64,000 bases of DNA, from NCBI RefSeq assembly GCF_002939985.1, contig NZ_MDFM01000009.1, forward strand, positions 1 through 64,000. The letters are read 5' to 3'. Every line of letters starts with the position of its first letter. The stretch's first letter is position 1. Positions 7,536-61,443 of this stretch are shown piece after piece. The DNA comes from Xanthomonas hortorum pv. cynarae. Its GTDB lineage: Bacteria > Pseudomonadota > Gammaproteobacteria > Xanthomonadales > Xanthomonadaceae. A program made the translations under genes and the position numbers. The notes beneath the pieces were generated by a model that was not told the DNA's origin, ran no database searches, and was given only the letters and a program-made list of their open reading frames with translations.

Positions 7536-10500
7536 TTAATCCTTGATAATTTCGCGCCACGACACCCTACCCGTGTTGCGGCTGTCTGCAATATTAAGGC
7601 TGCCCAGCCCTCCGCCTGAGCCACCAACAACCACCTTGCCACGCAATACATTACCGAGCGTTGGGATTCCTACACCCAGGTTGACCGAGCCCACCGGCCC
7701 CCCGCCCACTGTTTCATCGCTGAAACTGCCGTCTCCGTCAAGATCAAAGAACGACTCGGTACCACTCGTACCGGTGAAAGCATCCAACGCGTTGATATAA
7801 CCGGTGCCATCGGCCTGACACGCACTCGCCGTTGGAATGATGCTGCTCACCACCAACGTCCTGCTGAACAACTGCGCCTCGCTAACGATTCGCTCGCCTT
7901 CCAAGGTCCCCACACCGCCAACGTTTGCGGCAGGCTTCACCAAATCAATGTACCAACCTCTAGAGCCAGTAGGCAGGATCGAATTCGGCTCGAAGCCGCG
8001 CACTGGAAATCCATTTTGTGTCCCTGTCACCCTCACAGAGCGTGTCGTCAATGATGACCGCGCCAACGTAGCGGCGCTATTAGAGGTTGTCGCATCCACG
8101 ATGCCGTAAAGCGACTGTCCACTCTTATCGGTCAGATCGCCAACAGTCATAAAACGGCCGGTTCCAAAGAACAGCCAAGTTTCATAGGTGCGCGGATTCA
8201 ATGCCACGGTCATGTTGGCGGTAATTGGCTGCAACGTACTACCCGTACCCACAGGGTACGACGCAGTAAAGATTGGGCTACCCGAGTTTGCAACACCCCA
8301 GCTCGCCACGGCAGCTCCAGACAGGTCAAACTTCCAGACGTTACCACGCACGTCGCCCGCATAGACATAATCGACAGAGCCATTAGCATCGGCATCCCAA
8401 CCTGTTGCCCCGGAAAGCCCATTAGGTGCACCGGATGAACCCACGGCAGTGGTAATTTGCCTGATAAGAGCCCCTGTTTCCAAGTTATAGACTAAAAGTA
8501 CTGCTTGATCGTTCGTGCTGTTAATGCCATTGGCGACGACTAACGCGGTAGTCCCGTTATTAAGTCTTGCGATGAAGGGACGGGATTGGACCAACCCGAT
8601 ATTTGCCGCTTCGGCGTCACCTGACGCCCCGTAACGCTCCCACTTCACACTATTTGCTGAGAACCCGCTAGGCGTAGTCACATCCAAGGCGTAAAGGCCT
8701 TTCCCGCCTTTACCGAGACTTCCAACCAAGACCGTCCTATTCGGCGTCTGCACTCGCGTCGAAAGAATGACGGGTCCATCAACAAAATAGCGATGACTAT
8801 AGGTGGGCGCGCTCAAGCTTCCCAGGTCGGGAAAGTTGATCGAGGACGGAACATACGCAAACTGCTCAACCCCAGTAGTTGAATTGAAGGCATGCAACAT
8901 ACCGTCATTCGCGCCGACATACACCGTCCCGGTTTCCGATGAATACGCTGGTGACGAATTAACAATGTCTCCCAAAAGGGAAGTTCGATTACGCAAATTT
9001 CCGCTATTGATCTGTTCCTTACTGCGATCACCAGCAATATAAGCAGCATTCTCTTCACCGGTTACAGCCGGCGCAGACGTCCGCGCCAGAGAGGCGATTT
9101 GCCCAGCTGTAGGAAAAGCAGTACCAGCCGCACCATTCCAGGTAAATATTTTACGGTTGACAGCAGGAATACCTTCCGACGCACTCCATGTAGAAACACG
9201 CGCCACTTGCCCGTCGACTACCGGGAAAGCGTTGAGCTCACCAGTCCATATTCCAGAAAGATAACTGGCACTAAAGACAAGTGTCTCCCCACTAAGACTA
9301 GTGGATGTCGCAGAGACATTCGAAAAAGAACCAACACGCTGGGTGATCGTCGACAACGCAGCAGTCAACCCAAGCTTAAATGCATTGGGATCGGCGGCAG
9401 AAAGAAATGTTCCACGCCCATTGACGGCAGCGTGCCAGAGATCATCGACCCGGGCCAAAATATCGTTGTTGCCCGTATAGGACGATTGGGGATCTGGCCA
9501 CCCAATAGCCCCCGATACCAAGCGCGCCAAGTCGGTCGCCGGATTAAGCACGCCTCGCGCGCCGATGGCGATACCGAAGGTAACCATATGCTGCCAGAAT
9601 GCGGGATCAGCATTACTCGTCGGAACGATATTATCAAGATCTGCACGAAGATCACCTTTCCAATATGACATAGCGACGTCCGCCAGAGTATTGGAATAAT
9701 TATCCGAATACGGAGCACCCGCCGTGTATCCATAGGAAGCTGGTACACCGTTGGGCCCGGTGTAGGAAGTACCGTTTGTTCCGTCCTGGTTACCTGGATT
9801 GGCAGTAGTCGCGCCGTTCCAGTAGCCATCGGTTGTCATGATTGCAAAATTCTGTCTGCACGCATATTGATCTACACCGGCTTCGGGGCCATAGGGCCCA
9901 GACGCATCGGAACTCTGAAAATATTGACCAACTCCGTTCAAGGCATTCAGCAAGGGCGTGCCATTGTAGCCAGTCGCATTGTAAAGTCGGTCGTACCAAT
10001 TGGTACGCGCATTGATTGCTGCACCGCCGCCAGTAGCAGCACGATCCATGAAAAGACCCTGATTCCCATCATTTACCGGAATATCCAGGTTATTTCTGGA
10101 CCAGATAGTTCTGAACCCGACGCGGACGTTGGTACCAAGATCGCTAAAGGCCAGGCCGGCCCCTGCCTTGGCCGCCTTGATACGAGTGCGATGATAAGAA
10201 AACCAGGTTGCATAATTGGATGCCTCTGAAGACGCGCTTCTGCCTGTTGGAGTCACGGCAGTACAGTTGATCCAGTCGTTTTCGTCAGAAGATCCTGACG
10301 CGCATCGATTATCTCGATTAATATTTGCAGACAAAGAATAATTTGACGGTCCGCTACCTATTCCTCTAGACACGCGCACCTCATATATAGAGCTTGAAGC
10401 AGGAGTCACCGAACACGACTGAGATGAGTTAGCTGGCACGGTCGAATTGCAGACAACTAATAAAGGATTCGCCGCGCTTCTGACATTCAAAATTACGCTA

Positions 10501-11291
10501 CGATTTGATGTCGCATTTACCGTAACAGTAAGAGTTCCATTAGCCGGCACCGTGATTCTATAAGCATCTGTCTCGTTTGTCGTCACCGAACCAGACACAG
10601 GGTATCCAGGCACCGCGCTAACAACACCAACACGCCCGTATTCACTTCGGGTCACAGTGTTAGCATCAGTAATCTGATACCTGTAATAATTATCAGCGCC
10701 AGATAAATAATTTATCGCTTTATTGCCGGTGTCTTTCGGCACGTAGAATGTTTGCACACCACCACACACTTGCACGTTGGCGCCTGTACCCCTATCGTTA
10801 CCATTCTGATCGAATCTTCCGCAACTACTATTACTGGCTAAATCAATCGTTGTACCACTCGCCTTGTTGAAATCTCCATAGGCTGCTCCATAGGAAGTTC
10901 CCCCGGTCATCAGCGCGCCTGTAGCGTTGATCCACGGCTGGTAATTAATAGCAGGGTTATAGTAAATCGCATTTCCAACATAAGCGTTGTCGGTAATGTC
11001 GAAGACCACCTGTCGATTACTTACCTGGCAAGCTCCGCTTGATTCACGCCGGCAGATTTGAGTTACTTCAGGATTTGCCAAATCCCCGAATGCCATCGAA
11101 CCCGAGTCATCAAGAATGAACATGATGTTGGGAGGCACGCGACTTGCCGTGGTCAACGGATCGGTGGGCAACGTGATTCCGGCATTAGCCGGCAAGGAAA
11201 GCAGGGTGGCAAGCATAGATAACGCGGCCACCCTGAGCCTCTGGTGCAATGAGTGCAGGCGCCGACGGAATGGATGTTTGAGATTATTCAT
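7536..11291 (-). CDS. pilY1: PilY1-type pilus tip adhesin / assembly factor
   Basis: A 1251-residue exported protein. I start at 11291 (MNNLKHPF), 10 bases after the pilX stop, because an earlier ATG at 11342 would lie inside pilX. Signal peptide to about residue 37. A von Willebrand A-like module carries the MIDAS motif DDSGSM at 61-66. Residues roughly 235-330 read like a PPC-type beta domain inserted into the N-terminal half. The C-terminal half is the PilY1 beta-propeller with a calcium loop DADANGSVD, and a second acidic loop DLDGDGSFSD lies near the end. PilY1 primes pilus assembly and acts in surface sensing in Pseudomonas. Several stretches of the gene (about 10.3-10.9 kb) are clearly AT-richer than the neighbours. 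Confidence 0.93.
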   Translation of the reverse strand: MNNLKHPFRRRLHSLHQRLRVAALSMLATLLSLPANAGITLPTDPLTTASRVPPNIMFILDDSGSMAFGDLANPEVTQICRRESSGACQVSNRQVVFDITDNAYVGNAIYYNPAINYQPWINATGALMTGGTSYGAAYGDFNKASGTTIDLASNSSCGRFDQNGNDRGTGANVQVCGGVQTFYVPKDTGNKAINYLSGADNYYRYQITDANTVTRSEYGRVGVVSAVPGYPVSGSVTTNETDAYRITVPANGTLTVTVNATSNRSVILNVRSAANPLLVVCNSTVPANSSQSCSVTPASSSIYEVRVSRGIGSGPSNYSLSANINRDNRCASGSSDENDWINCTAVTPTGRSASSEASNYATWFSYHRTRIKAAKAGAGLAFSDLGTNVRVGFRTIWSRNNLDIPVNDGNQGLFMDRAATGGGAAINARTNWYDRLYNATGYNGTPLLNALNGVGQYFQSSDASGPYGPEAGVDQYACRQNFAIMTTDGYWNGATTANPGNQDGTNGTSYTGPNGVPASYGYTAGAPYSDNYSNTLADVAMSYWKGDLRADLDNIVPTSNADPAFWQHMVTFGIAIGARGVLNPATDLARLVSGAIGWPDPQSSYTGNNDILARVDDLWHAAVNGRGTFLSAADPNAFKLGLTAALSTITQRVGSFSNVSATSTSLSGETLVFSASYLSGIWTGELNAFPVVDGQVARVSTWSASEGIPAVNRKIFTWNGAAGTAFPTAGQIASLARTSAPAVTGEENAAYIAGDRSKEQINSGNLRNRTSLLGDIVNSSPAYSSETGTVYVGANDGMLHAFNSTTGVEQFAYVPSSINFPDLGSLSAPTYSHRYFVDGPVILSTRVQTPNRTVLVGSLGKGGKGLYALDVTTPSGFSANSVKWERYGASGDAEAANIGLVQSRPFIARLNNGTTALVVANGINSTNDQAVLLVYNLETGALIRQITTAVGSSGAPNGLSGATGWDADANGSVDYVYAGDVRGNVWKFDLSGAAVASWGVANSGSPIFTASYPVGTGSTLQPITANMTVALNPRTYETWLFFGTGRFMTVGDLTDKSGQSLYGIVDATTSNSAATLARSSLTTRSVRVTGTQNGFPVRGFEPNSILPTGSRGWYIDLVKPAANVGGVGTLEGERIVSEAQLFSRTLVVSSIIPTASACQADGTGYINALDAFTGTSGTESFFDLDGDGSFSDETVGGGPVGSVNLGVGIPTLGNVLRGKVVVGGSGGGLGSLNIADSRNTGRVSWREIIKD

Positions 11292-54193: not shown

Positions 54194-55606
54194 ATGCACA
54201 TCCCGAGAGCGATGAGATTCATTGCAACAAGGCAAGGACAGGCTACCTACCACGACTCGAAGTCACTCTCGCTTCTCGCCGCCGCCTTCATTTTTTTTGC
54301 ATCACAGCTGATAACCAATGCGACAATATTCCAAGGCGATGCAGGGGCTTACTGGGCGATCAGCTCGGCCATCGTTGATGGCAACTTTCCGCAAACGATC
54401 CGAGGCTACTTTTACCCACTTCTCCTGACGCCTTTCAGATTCATCTTCAATCACTCAGAGTCGCTTGGATTATTATCGCTAAAAATCGGGCAAGCGATTG
54501 GATACGGCTACCTACTCTCGATTCTATTGCCCGATTTTTACCAGGCGATCCTTGGCGCAAGAACTTCGACATTCAGAAGAATCGTACCATCACTTCTGGT
54601 CGCACTGATATTTCCAGGCCTGATTGCGTACCCGCTCAGCGACGCCCCATCATTTGGATTGATGGCTACAGCATTGCACCTTTCGCTAAAAGCAATCAGA
54701 TCACACTCATTGATTCTGCTACTGGCTGCAGGACTGTTGGCGTACTTTGCGTACAACACCAGAACAATTTACATGTTCTCCTTCATTGCCTTGATATCGA
54801 TTGTCTTCATTTTTTCTGCAAAGAACATCTCCCACAAGGCAATCGCCGTAGCATGCTTTCTTTTGGGCTCGGCCGTTGGCGCAATCCCTCAAATGGCAAT
54901 CAACCATCACTACCATGGCACGGCCTCGCCACTGGTCGTCACGGACAAGGACGGAAAATCGCTTTTTGTCAGACAATTGACATGGGGCATGGTCGTGGAC
55001 AAATACGAGACCTACATTGATCCGGGCACGCATCAGGCGACACCGGTGTTCTATGCAAATGATGAGGGAGCTTCGATCCTGCAGAACGAAGGAGGATTTA
55101 CCGAGAACCAGTCATTCCCTCGGATATTCAAGATGATGTCCGAGCATCCTATTGCCTTCGTAAAGATCTACATCCGCCATGTCGCACTGGCGCTGGATGC
55201 CAGAGATGGCGACGTCTACACAAATCTCCCCTCTTCTGAAAAAAGCACCCACTCACTCTTCTTCCTGATCATCGCCTGCCTTGGACTGACACGTCTGGCT
55301 GCATCACTCCTGGCTCAGGACAAAAATCGCAAAACCGCAGAGAATCTTCTCTACCTTTCGGTGCTTGCCTTACCCTGCATAGCAGTCATCCCCGGCGCTA
55401 TAGAAACGCGATTCTTTTTGCCAATCTATTGCATTTCCTACTGCGCACTCGCATTTGAGAGCATTAAACATAAAAAAGTCGTCGGCCAGCTCATCTGCGC
55501 AGCAATTCTTGTAACGTGCATCTTCTGCTTTGCAGAAACTTCGATGCAGTCCCCAAACTACACCAGGCCCGAATCTTATCTGGCCAGTCCGTCGAAACCA
55601 ACATGA
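54194..55606 (+). CDS. Polytopic membrane protein, possibly a GT-C-type glycosyltransferase
   Basis: A 470-residue protein with about 11 hydrophobic segments. An early extracytoplasmic loop has GDAGAYW, and a large loop spans about residues 245-330. The acidic residue in the first loop and the overall layout are reminiscent of GT-C (PMT/ArnT-like) transferases, but no family motif is certain. The gene is plainly AT-richer than the flanks and uses AAA, ATA and TTT codons rarely seen nearby, so recent transfer is likely. An ATG six codons in (54212) is an alternative start. Confidence 0.65.
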   Translation: MHIPRAMRFIATRQGQATYHDSKSLSLLAAAFIFFASQLITNATIFQGDAGAYWAISSAIVDGNFPQTIRGYFYPLLLTPFRFIFNHSESLGLLSLKIGQAIGYGYLLSILLPDFYQAILGARTSTFRRIVPSLLVALIFPGLIAYPLSDAPSFGLMATALHLSLKAIRSHSLILLLAAGLLAYFAYNTRTIYMFSFIALISIVFIFSAKNISHKAIAVACFLLGSAVGAIPQMAINHHYHGTASPLVVTDKDGKSLFVRQLTWGMVVDKYETYIDPGTHQATPVFYANDEGASILQNEGGFTENQSFPRIFKMMSEHPIAFVKIYIRHVALALDARDGDVYTNLPSSEKSTHSLFFLIIACLGLTRLAASLLAQDKNRKTAENLLYLSVLALPCIAVIPGAIETRFFLPIYCISYCALAFESIKHKKVVGQLICAAILVTCIFCFAETSMQSPNYTRPESYLASPSKPT

Positions 55607-55790
55607 CCTGAATCATCTTGAGATCAATCTGACGCATGCGCGAAAGATCAGATTGCGAGCTCGCAAAATCATTGACATACGGACATACCACTGCTTTGTC
55701 CGGCACTTCTGCTTTAAGCTCAGGAGGAGACTTCACTATCAATTAGACGCCGCACGCTCCAGCCCCTTTGATTGCATAGGCAGAGCGTGC

Positions 55791-56219
55791 TCAGTGATTA
55801 ACGATGTCGCCGTGCATTGCCGCCAGTCGTGCGAGCAAGCGATTCTGCGTGCGGCGCGGAATCTTGCGCTGATCCATCGCCCAGTTCAGATCCTCGACCA
55901 AGGCATTGAAGTCGCCTTCACGAATGGCCAGATGCGCATGCGCCTGTTTCATCGACTTGGCGGTATCCGGGCATGGCCCATCGCTGACGTGGCAGAACTT
56001 CTGCACCAGACGCTCGTTGAGCATGACGATGTTGACGCGCGCGAATTGATCGACGATGCGTTGATCGTCGGCAATGCGCGAGAGCATGGTTTCCACCAGC
56101 GCTTCGATCCCGGCTTGCCCGCCGAGTTCGTCGTAGAGCGTCTGGCGCGGTTGCGTGGTGGCGCAGGCGCTCACCAGGCCCAGCACGCAAAGCAGGCAGC
56201 AGCGCAGCCATCGGTTCAT
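55791..56219 (-). CDS. Group 1 truncated-hemoglobin lipoprotein
   Basis: A 142-residue protein. Residues 1-19 are a lipoprotein signal ending in LVSAC, so the globin would be anchored in the envelope. The rest matches group 1 truncated globins: YDELGGQAGIEALVETML, then KQAHAHLAIREGDFNALVEDL, containing the proximal His. Such globins bind O2, NO or CO. Export of a globin is unusual. It starts where the DUF3034 gene ends (one-base TGATG overlap) and is the last gene of a four-gene operon. Confidence 0.85.
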   Translation of the reverse strand: MNRWLRCCLLCVLGLVSACATTQPRQTLYDELGGQAGIEALVETMLSRIADDQRIVDQFARVNIVMLNERLVQKFCHVSDGPCPDTAKSMKQAHAHLAIREGDFNALVEDLNWAMDQRKIPRRTQNRLLARLAAMHGDIVNH

Positions 56220-57094
56220 CAGAACGCCACCTGCAAGGAAAGATAGGGACCACGCTGATCGGTAAGCGTGGCGATGTCGCCAAGGTCTGCCCAGGCCGCG
56301 GTGAACGACACATGCTTGCTGGGAAACCAGGCGACGAATGCGTCTGCCCAGGCCTTTTCGTGCGCGAAGCCCAGGTTATCGGGTTTGTCTCGGTATTCCA
56401 CGCCCACTGCCAGGGAGGGCGACAGCATCACCGCAGCGCTGGCCTCACCTACCAGCCGGTAGCTGTTGCGACGATCGCCGCCGAAGCCGAGCAAGCCGGT
56501 CTGATTGGCGCGGGTGGCGCGCAGGGTACCGTTGAGCAACAGCTGATAACCGCCAACGCCTTGCAGAAACAGCCGGCTGGCGCTGACGTACACATCGGTG
56601 CCGTGGTCGTCGCGCGCACCGATCGCCAGGGGCAGCGTGCCGTTGCGCAAACGCTTGTATTGCACGCCCAGACTGACTTGCGGCGCGCTCCCGTACACGA
56701 GGTCGCCATGCAGGCGCAGCTTGGCGCCGAACACATCCTGACCCAGTGCATTCCACGGCAAGCCCAATCGGTCCTGCAATGTGCCCAGATCCAGGCGTTG
56801 CCGTGCGAGCGAGAGTTCCAGCCGATTGCCGACGGTGAGCGCGGCGCCCTGCACATCCAATCGGTAATCGCCGCTGTCCACGTGGGTGGCGAACACGACG
56901 GTGGCAAGTTCATCGCGCGTGCCGTAGCCCGACAGCGTGGCCCACGGCACGATGCCGCCGCCGCTGCTGCCTTCGATCATCGACACGCCGCCGGTGGCAA
57001 GCAGACGCCCTTCTCCAGCAATCGCCAGTGGCGGCGTGAGCGCCAAACAACCCAACACTGCAGCAGACCGCGCGGCACCCACCCACTTGCTCAT
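56219..57094 (-). CDS. DUF3034 putative outer-membrane beta-barrel protein
   Basis: A 291-residue exported protein with signal peptide MSKWVGAARSAAVLGCLAL to AIA (about residue 26). It begins GEGRLLATGGVSMIEGSSGGG, the DUF3034 hallmark, followed by alternating amphipathic strands and a C-terminal aromatic residue (LSLQVAF), typical of a barrel. The start at 57094 overlaps the upstream GGDEF-EAL stop (ATGA). Function unknown; a channel or porin role is inferred. Confidence 0.82.
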   Translation of the reverse strand: MSKWVGAARSAAVLGCLALTPPLAIAGEGRLLATGGVSMIEGSSGGGIVPWATLSGYGTRDELATVVFATHVDSGDYRLDVQGAALTVGNRLELSLARQRLDLGTLQDRLGLPWNALGQDVFGAKLRLHGDLVYGSAPQVSLGVQYKRLRNGTLPLAIGARDDHGTDVYVSASRLFLQGVGGYQLLLNGTLRATRANQTGLLGFGGDRRNSYRLVGEASAAVMLSPSLAVGVEYRDKPDNLGFAHEKAWADAFVAWFPSKHVSFTAAWADLGDIATLTDQRGPYLSLQVAF

Positions 57095-59475
57095 CGTTGC
57101 GCTCCTGCTTGCGCGGCCGGCACCAGATCGAGTTGACCCAGATCGAGTTGACGCATGCACCAGGCCACAAACGGCACTTCTTCCAGCGGCGGCGCGTACA
57201 GATAGCCCTGCACCATGTCGCAGCCATAACTGCGCAGCAACCCGAGCGCCGTGGCGTTTTCCACGCCTTCGGCGATCACGCTCAATCCAAGGTTATGCCC
57301 CAGATCGATCGTGCTGCGCACGATGAATGCATCGTCGGTGCCTTCGGCCAATTGCATGACGAAACTCTTGTCGATCTTCAATTCGTTGACCGGCATGCGC
57401 TTGAGCTGCGCCAGCGAGGAATAGCCGGTGCCGAAGTCGTCGATGGACAGGCGCACGCCGACGCTGCGCAGCTGATGCAGCATGTGCAGCGCGAATTCGA
57501 CATCGCGCATCAAGGCGCTTTCGGTCAATTCCAGCGTGACCCGCTCGGCCGCCACCGCGTGATGCTCCAGACGACCGCGCACATAATCCGGCAGGCCGGG
57601 GTCGGATAGATCGAGCGCAGAGAGATTGATCGCCATGCCCAGCTCCAGGCCCTGGCTGCGCCATTGCGCCTGACACCGCAGCGCCTCGTCCAGCACATAG
57701 CGGGTCAGCGGATGGATCACCCCGGAGTGCTCGGCGAGCGGAATGAACTCGTCCGGGCCGATCGGTCCCAGCACCGGGTGATGCCAGCGCACCAGTACCT
57801 CGACCTGTTCGACGCGATCGCTGCGCAAACAGATCTTGGGTTGGAAGCGCAAGGTCAGTTCGTTGCTGGCAATCGCCTGGCGCAGATCGCCAGTGAGCCT
57901 TAGACGACGCAGATGCTGCTCGTCCTGGCCCAGGCGATACACGCTGCTGGCACCGATGGTGATGACATTGCCGCCCTGGCGACGCGCGATATCGGCGCGC
58001 CGCAGCAAGGTATCCGGATCGGCGCCGTGTTCGGGGATCAAGGCGATGCCGATGCTGGCTTCCAGCTGGATGCGCGCCTGCGGCAACGCCAGTGGGCGAC
58101 GCAGCTGCAGCAGCAATCGCTGCGCATCCTGCTGCACGCTGGTCATATCGGCCTGCGCCACCACCACCATGAATTCGTCGCTGCCCAACCGCCCGACCAC
58201 ATTGGGCTCCTGCACGACCTCGGCAAGGCGGCGCCCTGCTTCGACCAGCACCTGATCGGCGAAGTCGTGCCCCAGGCTGTCGTTGAGTTCCTTGAAGTGC
58301 TCAAGATCCAGGATCAGCACGGCGGCCGTAACACCCGAGGCCACGGTCTGCTCGACCACCTGTTGCAGCCGTTCCAGCAGCCAGATGCGATTGGGCAGGC
58401 CGGTCAAGGCATCGTGGCGCGCCTGATGCAGGATGTGCTGCTCGCGGCTGGCGATCTGCTGCTGCATGCGCCCGAAGCTGTCGGCCAGCTCGGCCAGTTC
58501 GCGTCCGGGCGGTACCTGCACCGCGGTGTGGTAATCGCCGCGCTGGATGCGTCGTGCTGCCTGCACCAACTGCGCAACCGGCTTGCTGACGCTGCGCGCG
58601 AGAAAAATCGCCACACCGATTGCGGCGGCCGTGGCCAGACCGGCCAACAACAGAATGCGCAGCTTGAGGATGCGATACGGTGCGACCGCACGATCCAGCG
58701 AGGCCTGCAAGGCGACCCGCACATGACTGTCGCCCTGGATCGATTGCAGTTTGACCAGGTAACGTGCGTCGGCCAGCGTCAGCGGGATCGCTTCACCCTG
58801 CCCCGCTTCGGCGGCGGGCAGCTGCTGCGGGAACTCGGAGCGCGCAGCCGGCTCCAACGTGGAGGCCAGTACGCGCACCGGCGGGCCATCGGTGAAAAAG
58901 GTCGCATCCAGCCCGGTGGTGGTACGAAAGTCCTGCGCCAGCCCATCGCCGGACTCGTTGCCGATCGCGATCCAGCCCACCCGGTTCGGCGCCAGTACCT
59001 GCACCACTGCCAGCCGCACGATGCGTTGATCCAGTGCCACCACCCCGACCGCGTGCCCGTCGCGCTGGGCCTGTTGCAGCAGTGCCTGCACGGCGCGCAA
59101 TTGCTCGGCTTGCGGCAGATCCGCCAGCCCGGTCAGGAATTCGCCATCCGGCGACAACAGCACTGCGGTCTGCGCCGACATGCGCGCGGCATGGTTACGC
59201 AATGCCGACTGCATGGTCGGCACATCGCCACTGGCCACTGCCGCACGGAAACCGAAATCGTCGGCCAGCACCGAGGCCGACTGCAGCAACTGCTCGTCGC
59301 GGCGCACGTTGATGCGTTGCCAGACGCGTTCGCCGATCTGCAGTTCTTCGCCCAGTTGCGCCTTGACGCTACGCTCGGTGGCGACCTGCACTGCGATGAA
59401 GGTCAGCACTTGCGTGGCGAGCACGACCAGGACCACCAAGGCCGCAATGCGGGTATGCAGACGCATCGCCTTCAT
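57091..59475 (-). CDS. Membrane GGDEF-EAL cyclic-di-GMP protein with periplasmic sensor
   Basis: A 794-residue protein: membrane span 11-32, periplasmic sensor about 33-270, second span 271-293, HAMP 294-345, GGDEF about 350-510, EAL about 530-780. The cyclase signature is GSDEF (431-435) and the usual inhibitory RxxD is absent (QEPN). The phosphodiesterase site looks intact: EVL (559-561), NLSALD, LTES, DDFGTGYSSL, LKIDKSF, AEGVEN and QGYLY. It is therefore probably a c-di-GMP phosphodiesterase with a regulatory GGDEF part. It overlaps both neighbours by four bases. Confidence 0.9.
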   Translation of the reverse strand: MKAMRLHTRIAALVVLVVLATQVLTFIAVQVATERSVKAQLGEELQIGERVWQRINVRRDEQLLQSASVLADDFGFRAAVASGDVPTMQSALRNHAARMSAQTAVLLSPDGEFLTGLADLPQAEQLRAVQALLQQAQRDGHAVGVVALDQRIVRLAVVQVLAPNRVGWIAIGNESGDGLAQDFRTTTGLDATFFTDGPPVRVLASTLEPAARSEFPQQLPAAEAGQGEAIPLTLADARYLVKLQSIQGDSHVRVALQASLDRAVAPYRILKLRILLLAGLATAAAIGVAIFLARSVSKPVAQLVQAARRIQRGDYHTAVQVPPGRELAELADSFGRMQQQIASREQHILHQARHDALTGLPNRIWLLERLQQVVEQTVASGVTAAVLILDLEHFKELNDSLGHDFADQVLVEAGRRLAEVVQEPNVVGRLGSDEFMVVVAQADMTSVQQDAQRLLLQLRRPLALPQARIQLEASIGIALIPEHGADPDTLLRRADIARRQGGNVITIGASSVYRLGQDEQHLRRLRLTGDLRQAIASNELTLRFQPKICLRSDRVEQVEVLVRWHHPVLGPIGPDEFIPLAEHSGVIHPLTRYVLDEALRCQAQWRSQGLELGMAINLSALDLSDPGLPDYVRGRLEHHAVAAERVTLELTESALMRDVEFALHMLHQLRSVGVRLSIDDFGTGYSSLAQLKRMPVNELKIDKSFVMQLAEGTDDAFIVRSTIDLGHNLGLSVIAEGVENATALGLLRSYGCDMVQGYLYAPPLEEVPFVAWCMRQLDLGQLDLVPAAQAGAQR

Positions 59476-60161
59476 GGATGCGGCTTCTTCGGGTCGGCAC
59501 GACGGAATTTGTCCTGCAGCGCGCGCACGCGCTCATCCGGTGGTGCCGCCATCGGCGCGGCGCCGGTGGTCTGCAGGGTCACGCGACGCTGCACTGCATC
59601 GCGCGCAAGCAGCAACGGCTCGGTGACCACGGCACCCTTGATGCGCGGATGCCAGACCCGCAGCGTATAGGCGCCTGCCGGTGCATCCAGTTGCACGCGG
59701 CCGTCGCTGCCGGTCTTGCCGAAATACGGCGTCTCCAGCACCACGATATAGCCAAGCATCCAGTCGTGGATATTGCAGCCAATCGTCACCAGGCCCGCCT
59801 GATCGAAACGGATCGGCGTGGCCTTGGTGCCCTGAAACAGCGGCAATTCGAAACGCTTGGCAGGCGAAAAAGAATAGACCTGGTGGCGGATCTGATCGTT
59901 GTTCGGAAAGCGCACCAAGGTGCCGGTGCGCACCGCCAGGACGGCGGGCACGAACTGCGAATTGACCTGATCCATTTCCATGGTCTTTGCTGCACTGGGT
60001 GGCGCCGGACGCGCCGGCTCCAGACTGACCACCGCATCGACCAACATGCCGTTGGCATCGGCCACGGTCACGCTGACCGGCGTTGCCACCACAGCGCTTG
60101 CGGCGCAGTACGCCAGCAACACCGAACCCACACCTATCCGTTTGAACCACTGCGTCCGCAT
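59472..60161 (-). CDS. Periplasmic cupredoxin-like protein (methylamine-utilisation type)
   Basis: A 229-residue exported protein with signal peptide to about residue 26. A type 1 copper site is visible: His93 (IRHQVYSF), Cys129, His132 and Met135 (CNIHDWM). A carboxypeptidase-regulatory-like C-terminal beta domain (TGSDGRVQLDAPAGAYTLRVWHP) follows. GGGGGGAG lies directly before the ATG at 60161. First gene of the four-gene operon. Its overlap with the GGDEF-EAL gene suggests the redox or copper state of this protein may be read by that sensor. Confidence 0.85.
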   Translation of the reverse strand: MRTQWFKRIGVGSVLLAYCAASAVVATPVSVTVADANGMLVDAVVSLEPARPAPPSAAKTMEMDQVNSQFVPAVLAVRTGTLVRFPNNDQIRHQVYSFSPAKRFELPLFQGTKATPIRFDQAGLVTIGCNIHDWMLGYIVVLETPYFGKTGSDGRVQLDAPAGAYTLRVWHPRIKGAVVTEPLLLARDAVQRRVTLQTTGAAPMAAPPDERVRALQDKFRRADPKKPHP

Positions 60162-60366
60162 GCTCCCCCCAACCTAGTGCAATCGGCAACGGGCGCCAGG
60201 CGAATCCGACGTCGCGCTAGCGATCAGACTGAGTTATCGGCTGAGGTGAACGCAAGCTTTAACCAGACGCGAGCGGAATGTTTTGAACAGAACTGTGGTG
60301 TCGGTCATTACCCGTGTTGCGAGCGCGGCTATTCGCTGCGCGCGCTGATAGGGACCGCGTGCTGGA

Positions 60367-61305
60367 TTACTTCAGCTTGATCTCGCGCAGACGCTCTTCC
60401 AGGAAGCCGTGTGCGGTGATCGGCTGGGGATAGCGGCTCGGGTTTTCGGCAGTGATGCACGAAGGCAGCACGTCGATCAGAAAGTCCGGATTCGGGTGCA
60501 GGAAGAACGGCACCGAATAACGCGGCTCGCGCGCTGCTTCGCCCGGCGGATTGACCACGCGATGGATGGTGGACGGGTACACATGGTTGGTCAGGCGTTG
60601 CAGCATGTCGCCGATATTGACCACGATGGTGTCGGCATCCGCTGTGAATGGCACCCACTCGCCATCGTTGGAACGCACTTCCAGACCGGCCGCGCTGGCA
60701 CCGACCAGCAAGGTGATGAAGTTGATGTCGCCATGCGCACCGGCACGCACGTTGGGAATATCGTCGCTGGTGATCGGCGGGTAGTGGATCGGCCGCAGGA
60801 TCGAATTGCCGTTGTTGGTCTTGTCGACGAAATAGTCCTGCGGCAGGCCGATATGCAGCGCCAGCGCCGACAGCACGCGCGAACCCAGGTGATCGAGCTG
60901 CTGGTACAGGCGGTAACCGCGTTCGCGGAAACCGGGCACCTCTTCGGGCCACAGGTTCGGCGTCATCACCTCGCGATACGGCGAATCGTCCGGAATCTCG
61001 CGGCCGATATGCCAGAACTCCTTCAGATCGAAATGCTTGGAATCCTTGGCCGTTTCCACACCGAACGCGGTGTAGCCGCGCGCGCCACCACTGCCTTTGA
61101 CGTGGTAGCGCTGCTTGACATCTTCCGGCAGCGCGAAGAACGCCTTGAACACCTCGTAGGCGCCATCGATATCGGCCTGCGCAATGCCGTGATTGCGGAT
61201 GCCGGCAAAGCCCCACTGCCGATAGGCCGCGCCGAGCTCGGCGACGAAGGCGTCGCGGTCGCTGTCGAAACGGGTGATGTCCAGGGTCGGGATGCGGGCG
61301 CTCAT
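60367..61305 (-). CDS. Isopenicillin N synthase-like 2-oxoglutarate/Fe(II) oxygenase
   Basis: A 312-residue double-stranded beta-helix oxygenase. The iron triad is His-x-Asp in GAHGDINFITLLVG and His in STIHRVVNP; the 2-oxoglutarate Arg is in RYSVPFFLHPN. The N-terminal DIN_N-like segment has GFAGIRNHGI. The substrate is unknown. It stands alone between glmM and the operon above. Confidence 0.85.
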   Translation of the reverse strand: MSARIPTLDITRFDSDRDAFVAELGAAYRQWGFAGIRNHGIAQADIDGAYEVFKAFFALPEDVKQRYHVKGSGGARGYTAFGVETAKDSKHFDLKEFWHIGREIPDDSPYREVMTPNLWPEEVPGFRERGYRLYQQLDHLGSRVLSALALHIGLPQDYFVDKTNNGNSILRPIHYPPITSDDIPNVRAGAHGDINFITLLVGASAAGLEVRSNDGEWVPFTADADTIVVNIGDMLQRLTNHVYPSTIHRVVNPPGEAAREPRYSVPFFLHPNPDFLIDVLPSCITAENPSRYPQPITAHGFLEERLREIKLK

Positions 61306-61353
61306 ACGGGTATCTGCAGTCGAAGTCGAGGAGTCAAAAGGAAGGCCTGCTGT

Positions 61354-61443
61354 TCAAGACAGCAGGCGATACAACAGGTAGAACGTCGCGGCCTTGGCAA
61401 AGACCACGCACACGCCAATGATCAGCGACTCACGCCGCGTCAC
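61354..61443 (-). CDS. Possible 29-residue small membrane protein overlapping the end of glmM
   Basis: Starting at a GTG inside the last codons of glmM (61443), an open frame reads [29 protein letters not shown] and stops at 61354. A basic start followed by one hydrophobic span is what small membrane proteins look like. No clear ribosome site is visible, and the start is non-ATG, so this is only a candidate. Confidence 0.35.

Follow-up and report, generated by a model that had tools for sequence, protein, structure and literature searches.

In switches of the YfiBNR/TpbB type, an outer-membrane part, a redox-dependent periplasmic regulator and an inner-membrane enzyme of cyclic dimeric guanosine monophosphate (c-di-GMP) metabolism are encoded in one operon. 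In the NspS-MbaA system of Vibrio, the periplasmic protein NspS is encoded beside, and controls, a membrane GGDEF-EAL phosphodiesterase, while in LuxP-LuxQ a Cache-type periplasmic domain is read via a partner protein, LuxP, which has a sugar-binding-protein fold, and the output is a hybrid kinase. LuxQ is placed among the Cache domains without cofactor or ligand in a passage of PMC8694187. Here, we describe a four-gene operon of Xanthomonas hortorum pv. cynarae with a comparable layout, located in a stretch of 64,000 nucleotides (NZ_MDFM01000009.1, positions 1 to 64,000; assembly GCF_002939985.1), hereafter the window. The operon encodes a cupredoxin, a membrane sensor with dCache_3, HAMP, GGDEF and EAL domains, a DUF3034 protein and a truncated globin. 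We found that it consists of two modules, one formed by the cupredoxin and the dCache_3 sensor, the other by the predicted outer-membrane barrel and the exported globin. The four-gene set is not described in the titles, abstract openings and passages surveyed from the open-licence PubMed Central (PMC) literature, nor is a function given there for the DUF3034 family.

Gene organization and domain composition

The open reading frames bear out a four-gene operon, as an earlier note on this DNA had proposed, with overlaps of 4 bases between the cupredoxin and sensor genes (59472-59475), 4 bases between the sensor and DUF3034 genes (57091-57094) and 1 base between the DUF3034 and globin genes (56219). 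The start of the DUF3034 gene was set at the ATG just 5′ of a signal-peptide-like stretch, the longest frame beginning with a GTG at 57160. The sensor matches the Pfam families dCache_3 (expectation value, E, 1.6e-10), HAMP (2.7e-13), GGDEF (6.5e-38) and EAL (2.6e-71). DUF3034 (PF11231) is matched over the full length of the profile (E 2.7e-112; 374.9 bits, cut-off 25), and the globin matches Bac_globin (PF01152; E 2.8e-12) above the cut-off. The matches of the cupredoxin are sub-threshold (Cupredoxin_1 in Pfam, E 0.0097; amicyanin in NCBIfam, E 0.0039). DUF3034 and the full-length cupredoxin are each encoded once in the genome, and the DUF3034 protein shows up to 96% identity to its counterpart in Xanthomonas sp. 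LMG 31884. A PADLOC search for anti-phage defence gave zero matches among the four operon proteins.

Table 1. Features of the operon and of related loci
Feature	Locus	Position	Strand	Size or remark
Cupredoxin, predicted to be exported	window	59472-60161	minus	229 aa
dCache_3-HAMP-GGDEF-EAL membrane sensor	window	57091-59475	minus	794 aa
DUF3034, predicted outer-membrane beta-barrel	window	56219-57094	minus	291 aa
Group 1 truncated globin, predicted to be exported	window	55791-56219	minus	142 aa; lipoprotein here
Sigma-28 (FliA)-like motif TAAAGCTT-N12-GCCGATAA	window	60234-60261	minus	72 bases before cupredoxin start codon
Type 1 copper ligand H93	window	59883-59885	minus	
Type 1 copper ligand C129	window	59775-59777	minus	
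Type 1 copper ligand H132	window	59766-59768	minus	
Type 1 copper ligand M135	window	59757-59759	minus	
GSDEF in sensor GGDEF domain	window	58171-58185	minus	degenerate motif
Globin proximal His94	window	55938-55940	minus	
Globin Cys76	window	55992-55994	minus	
Globin Cys83	window	55971-55973	minus	
Globin lipobox VSAC	window		minus	
Cupredoxin-dCache pair, nucleotide-cyclase domain output	L188			cut by contig end
Cupredoxin-dCache pair, nucleotide-cyclase domain output	L189			
Serine/threonine protein kinase behind dCache-HAMP	L203			transmembrane kinase architecture
PAS hybrid histidine kinases	L204, L205			Pfam without dCache_3; domain seen only with window-derived sensor profile
Di-heme MauG/cytochrome-c-peroxidase gene	L204	6181-7194		between cupredoxin and sensor kinase genes

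Distribution and gene order

We searched a phylum-wide sample of 398 genomes with PF11231 and with cupredoxin and sensor profiles. DUF3034 is present in 39 genomes from 14 families, of which 38 also encode the cupredoxin and 37 the sensor. The DUF3034 neighborhoods comprise 39 regions (L031-L069), i.e., those of 38 genomes besides the window's own and one broken second copy, with genes assigned by profiles seeded from the window proteins; the globin adjoins DUF3034 in 38 of them, the 39th (L069) being the broken copy. Co-occurrence across Proteobacteria, which the earlier note had set beforehand as its check, was thus confirmed. It supports the view that the set unites a type 1 copper protein, a heme-type globin and a c-di-GMP enzyme in the envelope. 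In the whole sample, the cupredoxin was counted in 53 genomes (E ≤3.8e-32; 32 weaker ones of 85, at ≥1.3e-26 and mostly short stretches, were left out) and the sensor in 52 (threshold E 1e-8), with both in 50. Fisher tests gave P < 1e-36 for each pairing (sensor/cupredoxin, DUF3034/cupredoxin, DUF3034/sensor), not corrected for descent. The four-gene arrangement is more than chance.

The cupredoxin lies near DUF3034 in 32 of the 39 regions, and 22 regions hold all four genes colinear as in the window. The cupredoxin-sensor pair is divergent from the DUF3034-globin pair in six (L045, L051, L062, L064, L065, L067), and in L043 both pairs share a strand in reversed order. The run lacks the sensor in L037 and the cupredoxin in L052; L055 and L060 show DUF3034-globin-cupredoxin, and five regions (L035, L061, L063, L066, L068) contain DUF3034-globin only. 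For four of these five solitary pairs, a cupredoxin-sensor pair is found elsewhere in the genome (G213, G225, G261, G389). Fixed stoichiometry, formerly deduced from the overlaps, does not follow from them; the gene order varies, with the two halves divergent or apart in other genomes. The cupredoxin and the sensor share genomes even when far apart (G015, G126, G142, G158, G375). The cupredoxin occurs without a sensor at threshold in G019, G052 and G233, and in G052 a sensor-like kinase just under the threshold (L205, 2e-07) lies near the cupredoxin. Six genomes of other genera in the window's family (G031, G090, G094, G284, G302, G393) gave no DUF3034, cupredoxin or sensor match, so that the presence of the set is patchy close to Xanthomonas.

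Among the named loci, which are the best 80 of 587 by similarity and hence mostly from Xanthomonas and Pseudomonas, 78 hold all four families in order. The exceptions, L112 and L120, show DUF3034 and the globin only, and L120 lies where its contig ends; L124 has a short sensor frame. Some loci carry additional variants. A second dCache-GGDEF-EAL gene is located directly upstream of the cupredoxin gene in 12 of the 80 (L095, L096, L101, L103, L108, L111, L115, L122, L124, L130, L135, L140), and one of the same family downstream of the globin gene in L093 and L134. In L080 of Xanthomonas phaseoli (7601-10822), the sensor and DUF3034 form one long open frame, either through natural fusion or through a changed stop codon. 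The broken DUF3034-globin copy of L069 is interrupted by stop codons and belongs to a small genome (G078) that also has an intact copy.

Two modules with exchangeable parts

Thirty further cupredoxin loci were taken outside the DUF3034 regions, the frames in GC-rich loci being set by profile matches. In 18 of them, a dCache sensor of the same family is encoded either directly adjacent to the cupredoxin or with a single gene in between. The outputs of these 18 differ: 13 are GGDEF-EAL proteins, two have a nucleotide cyclase, one a serine/threonine protein kinase and two a PAS hybrid histidine kinase (Table 1). In one of the histidine kinase loci (L204), the intervening gene is MauG-like, which places a heme protein again alongside the copper protein.

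The second module, too, is replaced at some loci. Behind the sensor, a porin-like protein of ~410 residues replaces DUF3034 and the globin in eight loci (L181, L195, L197-L202), and in five others, which lack a sensor, the same type of protein adjoins the cupredoxin, in tandem in L184, L186, L193 and L196 and divergent in L180. The porin likeness is weak, Porin_4 being below the cut-off in two of three tested proteins, and 11 of the marked loci had served to build the profile, so that only L180 and L198 were marked independently.

The distances among cupredoxins and among sensors are correlated over 45 pairs (Mantel r 0.77; the maximum of 1000 permutations was 0.19). Outside the DUF3034 loci, L183/L192, L182/L185/L187 and L198-L202 cluster in both trees, with some single placements differing. 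Since the cupredoxin-sensor pair is kept while the output and the barrel vary, a copper protein with a dCache sensor seems to be the core unit, and the barrel, the heme protein and the output look like parts attached around it. The joining of the four genes in one envelope operon, put forward in the earlier note, is retained; yet the genes form two modules, and the cupredoxin is tied to the sensor and not only to c-di-GMP outputs.

Conserved features of the four proteins

The cupredoxin combines the His/Cys/His/Met ligands of type 1 copper proteins with a cupredoxin fold in its predicted model (predicted local distance difference test, pLDDT, 88), the nearest solved folds being amicyanin, pseudoazurin and plastocyanin. 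All four ligands are invariant in 33/33 sequences. The likeness to amicyanin and pseudoazurin extends to the fold and the H...C-x2-H-x2-M ligand set. Unlike them, the operon protein is longer, with a C-terminal beta-rich part seen in the model and in weak Fn3_arc and carboxypeptidase-regulatory-like matches, and its 17.5 bits fall far short of the curated amicyanin family cut-off of 110.2. A search of the genome for the methylamine dehydrogenase light chain (PF02975) gave no match, which is a weak negative as the same search was silent in control genomes too.

In the sensor, nine EAL positions with catalytic roles (E559, N617, E649, D679, D680, K700, D702, E736, Q756) are identical in 52/52 aligned sequences, including that of the window. 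The GGDEF motif of the window reads GSDEF, outside the GG[DE]EF pattern of diguanylate cyclases, and a canonical motif is present in 14 of the 52 family sensors. The invariant EAL residues and the scarcity of canonical GGDEF motifs make c-di-GMP breakdown the predicted output, and the GGDEF domain would be a regulatory part of this predicted phosphodiesterase. The c-di-GMP turnover formerly proposed is accordingly narrowed to a predicted breakdown, as opposed to a reaction in both directions. D73, R98 and a DFGF stretch of the sensor are also largely conserved. Comparison of the sensor and DUF3034 profiles with sequences of solved structures yielded nothing useful.

The globin has the truncated fold and the proximal F8 histidine of group 1 truncated hemoglobins: its His94 aligns with the proximal histidine of HbN, its best solved relative (E 6e-25). 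HbN carries Tyr at B10, Gln at E11 and Leu at E7. In the operon globins, B10 is L/V/I/M in 38/39 and Asn in one, E7 is L/F/V/I and E11 is L/F in all 39, which gives an apolar distal pocket; they further differ from HbN in their predicted export and in having a cysteine pair, Cys76 and Cys83, which like His94 is invariant in 39/39. As a control, unlinked globins of the same genomes were collected (19 matches, 13 with loci tried, 11 aligned); Tyr B10 is present in 11/11 and both cysteines in none. Heme pockets that lack a hydrogen-bond donor should favor nitric oxide (NO) over O2, as in cytochromes c′, and the absence of the distal tyrosine speaks against tight O2 binding. Export is predicted for the globins as follows: 24 of the 39 have a strict lipobox pattern, those of L034 and L044 are lipoprotein-like too, and the others were judged by eye to have either usual signal sequences or linkers. 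In the six divergent-type loci listed above, a VDPY...NAG linker stands between the signal region and the fold instead of the lipobox.

DUF3034 is predicted to be an outer-membrane beta-barrel, its model matching FapF, Omp33, NanC and the COG4313 channel. FapF is the best of these matches (E 4.9e-07; template modeling, TM, score 0.54; 9% identity; root-mean-square deviation 6.6).

Upstream region

A flagellar-type promoter motif, missed in the earlier note, precedes the operon (Table 1). The FliA consensus is given as TAAAGTTT-N11-GCCGATAA in a passage of PMC7286023, and the window motif agrees with it at 15 of 16 positions. Among Xanthomonas/Pseudoxanthomonas loci, at least 13/16 positions agree in 15 of 17 and at least 12/16 in 16 of 17 (0.25 expected by shuffling; none on the opposite strand), one of 18 loci being left out as its cupredoxin lies at the contig start. 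At least 12/16 was also reached in 33 of 60 other named loci (1.5 expected; 4 on the opposite strand), with a spacer of 11 in most Pseudomonas matches. As the loci are related and the phylum-sample and named sets partly overlap (e.g., L031/L122, L032/L108), these counts are not independent. In the 5.06 Mb genome, TAAAGNTT-N11/12-GCCGNTAA has one site, at the operon. The flagellin gene of this genome has a 13/16 site with spacer 11, and filament-cap-like and FlgM-like genes, identified by eye, have related sites, also with spacer 11. Flagellin is encoded in 38/39 DUF3034 genomes versus 330/398 overall (P 0.004, uncorrected). Sigma-28 is a likely candidate for control of the operon.

Several results tell against such control. 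The Xanthomonas spacer is 12 versus 11 in the consensus, at least 12/16 was reached in only 9/32 phylum-sample loci (2.05 expected; 2 on the opposite strand), and the other cupredoxin loci are at chance level (3/30; 2.5 expected; 3 on the opposite strand). The backwards control of TAAAGNTT-N11/12-GCCGNTAA also has one site in the genome, elsewhere. Exact TAAA-N15/16-GCCGATAA and its backwards control occur twice each in the genome; six other genomes contain 19 exact sites versus 7 controls, and none of the 19 is at the operon.

A scan of 55400-61400 for a sigma-70 promoter gave none, with 1.2 expected. With the consensus strings of FNR/Anr, Fur, NsrR, CueR, DNR, CopR, OxyR, RpoN, FleQ and CRP, no box was clearly enriched in 78 upstream regions against one shuffle each; an RpoN-like match (at most one mismatch) was present in two of the 78 versus zero in the shuffles.

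Proposed mechanism and alternatives

We propose a two-module envelope system, a periplasmic sensor of copper/heme redox state or NO that tunes a phosphodiesterase in motile cells, and give this proposal an even chance. The type 1 copper protein would be the periplasmic partner of the dCache_3 transmembrane sensor, and its state (copper-loaded, oxidised or reduced) would be read by the dCache domain. The signal would pass through HAMP and the mostly degenerate GGDEF domain to the EAL phosphodiesterase and change c-di-GMP breakdown. On the input side, the DUF3034 barrel and the periplasmic globin, often a lipoprotein, may allow the heme to meet an oxidant or gas, NO or H2O2 being more likely than O2, and the globin would exchange electrons with the cupredoxin. 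A sigma-28-type promoter, as suggested for Xanthomonas and many Pseudomonas, would mean expression of the operon in flagellated cells, in which lower c-di-GMP favors swimming.

Other observations fit this proposal less well. No sensor was found within ~4.5 kb in 12 of the 30 further cupredoxin loci, and globin profiles matched none of the 30, other heme proteins being covered there only by Pfam scans. In G019, cupredoxin-DUF3034-globin is present but such a sensor is missing; in G078, DUF3034-globin comes with no cupredoxin or sensor match; and in G119 and G141 the sensor is found but not the cupredoxin. The co-occurrence P values take no account of shared ancestry; operon neighbors likewise share history, so that the Mantel result mostly means little partner swapping. 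The DUF3034 model is of modest confidence (pLDDT 67). The unlinked globins, too, have Leu/Phe at E11 and resemble another truncated-globin group; thus, only B10 and the cysteine pair distinguish the linked globins, and the lost tyrosine is the firm point.

Two alternatives keep the metal centers but assign them other roles. The system could be a sensor of copper status, in which the cupredoxin serves as a periplasmic copper buffer and is bound by the dCache domain in its apo or loaded form, while the globin and barrel serve heme or copper traffic without electron transfer. The invariance of the copper ligands would agree with this, as would the five loci in which the cupredoxin is paired with the porin-like barrel in the absence of both sensor and globin; yet CueR- and CopR-like sequences are among the boxes that lack enrichment, and the globin's constant place beside DUF3034 is at odds with it, so we regard a copper-status sensor as unlikely. 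Equally unlikely is a periplasmic heme and copper electron-transfer set, respiratory or detoxifying, with a phosphodiesterase that is merely co-transcribed and a dCache_3 domain that senses an ordinary small molecule. Many dCache domains do bind small molecules, according to a passage of PMC8694187; the conservation of D73, R98 and the DFGF stretch is what a ligand pocket could show, and the MauG-like gene of L204 fits an electron-transfer role. However, the cupredoxin and the sensor remain paired with outputs of several kinds and occur in the same genomes even when unlinked, for which mere co-transcription is no explanation.

A further alternative puts the barrel first: DUF3034 would be an outer-membrane channel for some substrate, regulated by the other proteins, with c-di-GMP controlling secretion or uptake through it as in FapF-like systems. 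The best match of the DUF3034 model is indeed FapF, and another barrel-like protein substitutes for DUF3034 at other loci; however, at such low identity and large deviation the match indicates the fold class only, in a model whose confidence is modest, and we consider a substrate channel very improbable.

The two-module system might be one case of a new, general receptor class. Such receptors would pair a dCache transmembrane sensor with a blue copper protein as the periplasmic half that bears the signal, and would be connected to interchangeable outputs, namely c-di-GMP phosphodiesterase, nucleotide cyclase, serine/threonine kinase and histidine kinase. The actual signal would be the redox state of the copper center, as determined by an exported globin that reacts with NO or peroxide. 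This extension is tentative and, on balance, doubtful. The proposed system would, if true, assign a function to DUF3034, to an exported globin family and to an amicyanin-like cupredoxin family, offer a route by which c-di-GMP signalling could read periplasmic copper/heme redox or NO, and represent a type of metalloprotein-coupled receptor with one sensor half common to several kinds of output.

Comparison with known systems

The operon shares with YfiBNR an outer-membrane part, a periplasmic regulator and an inner-membrane c-di-GMP enzyme encoded together. The parts themselves differ: YfiN is a cyclase whose sensor domain is of another kind, and YfiR and YfiB belong to other families, whereas here a predicted phosphodiesterase is combined with a copper-protein regulator. 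No Pfam match to YfiR, YfiB (OmpA-type) or YfiN was found among the four operon proteins, and the DgcN/YfiN model covers only sensor residues 269-496, with 150.9 of 325 bits. In comparison with NspS-MbaA, NspS is a polyamine-binding protein of solute-binding fold, whereas the operon has a cupredoxin, a barrel and a globin. With LuxP-LuxQ, in turn, it would share a Cache domain read via a protein partner, the difference being the LuxP fold and the hybrid-kinase output as opposed to a cupredoxin and a phosphodiesterase. In our best reading, which is by analogy, the operon would function in the manner of YfiBNR or NspS-MbaA, but with components unrelated to theirs.

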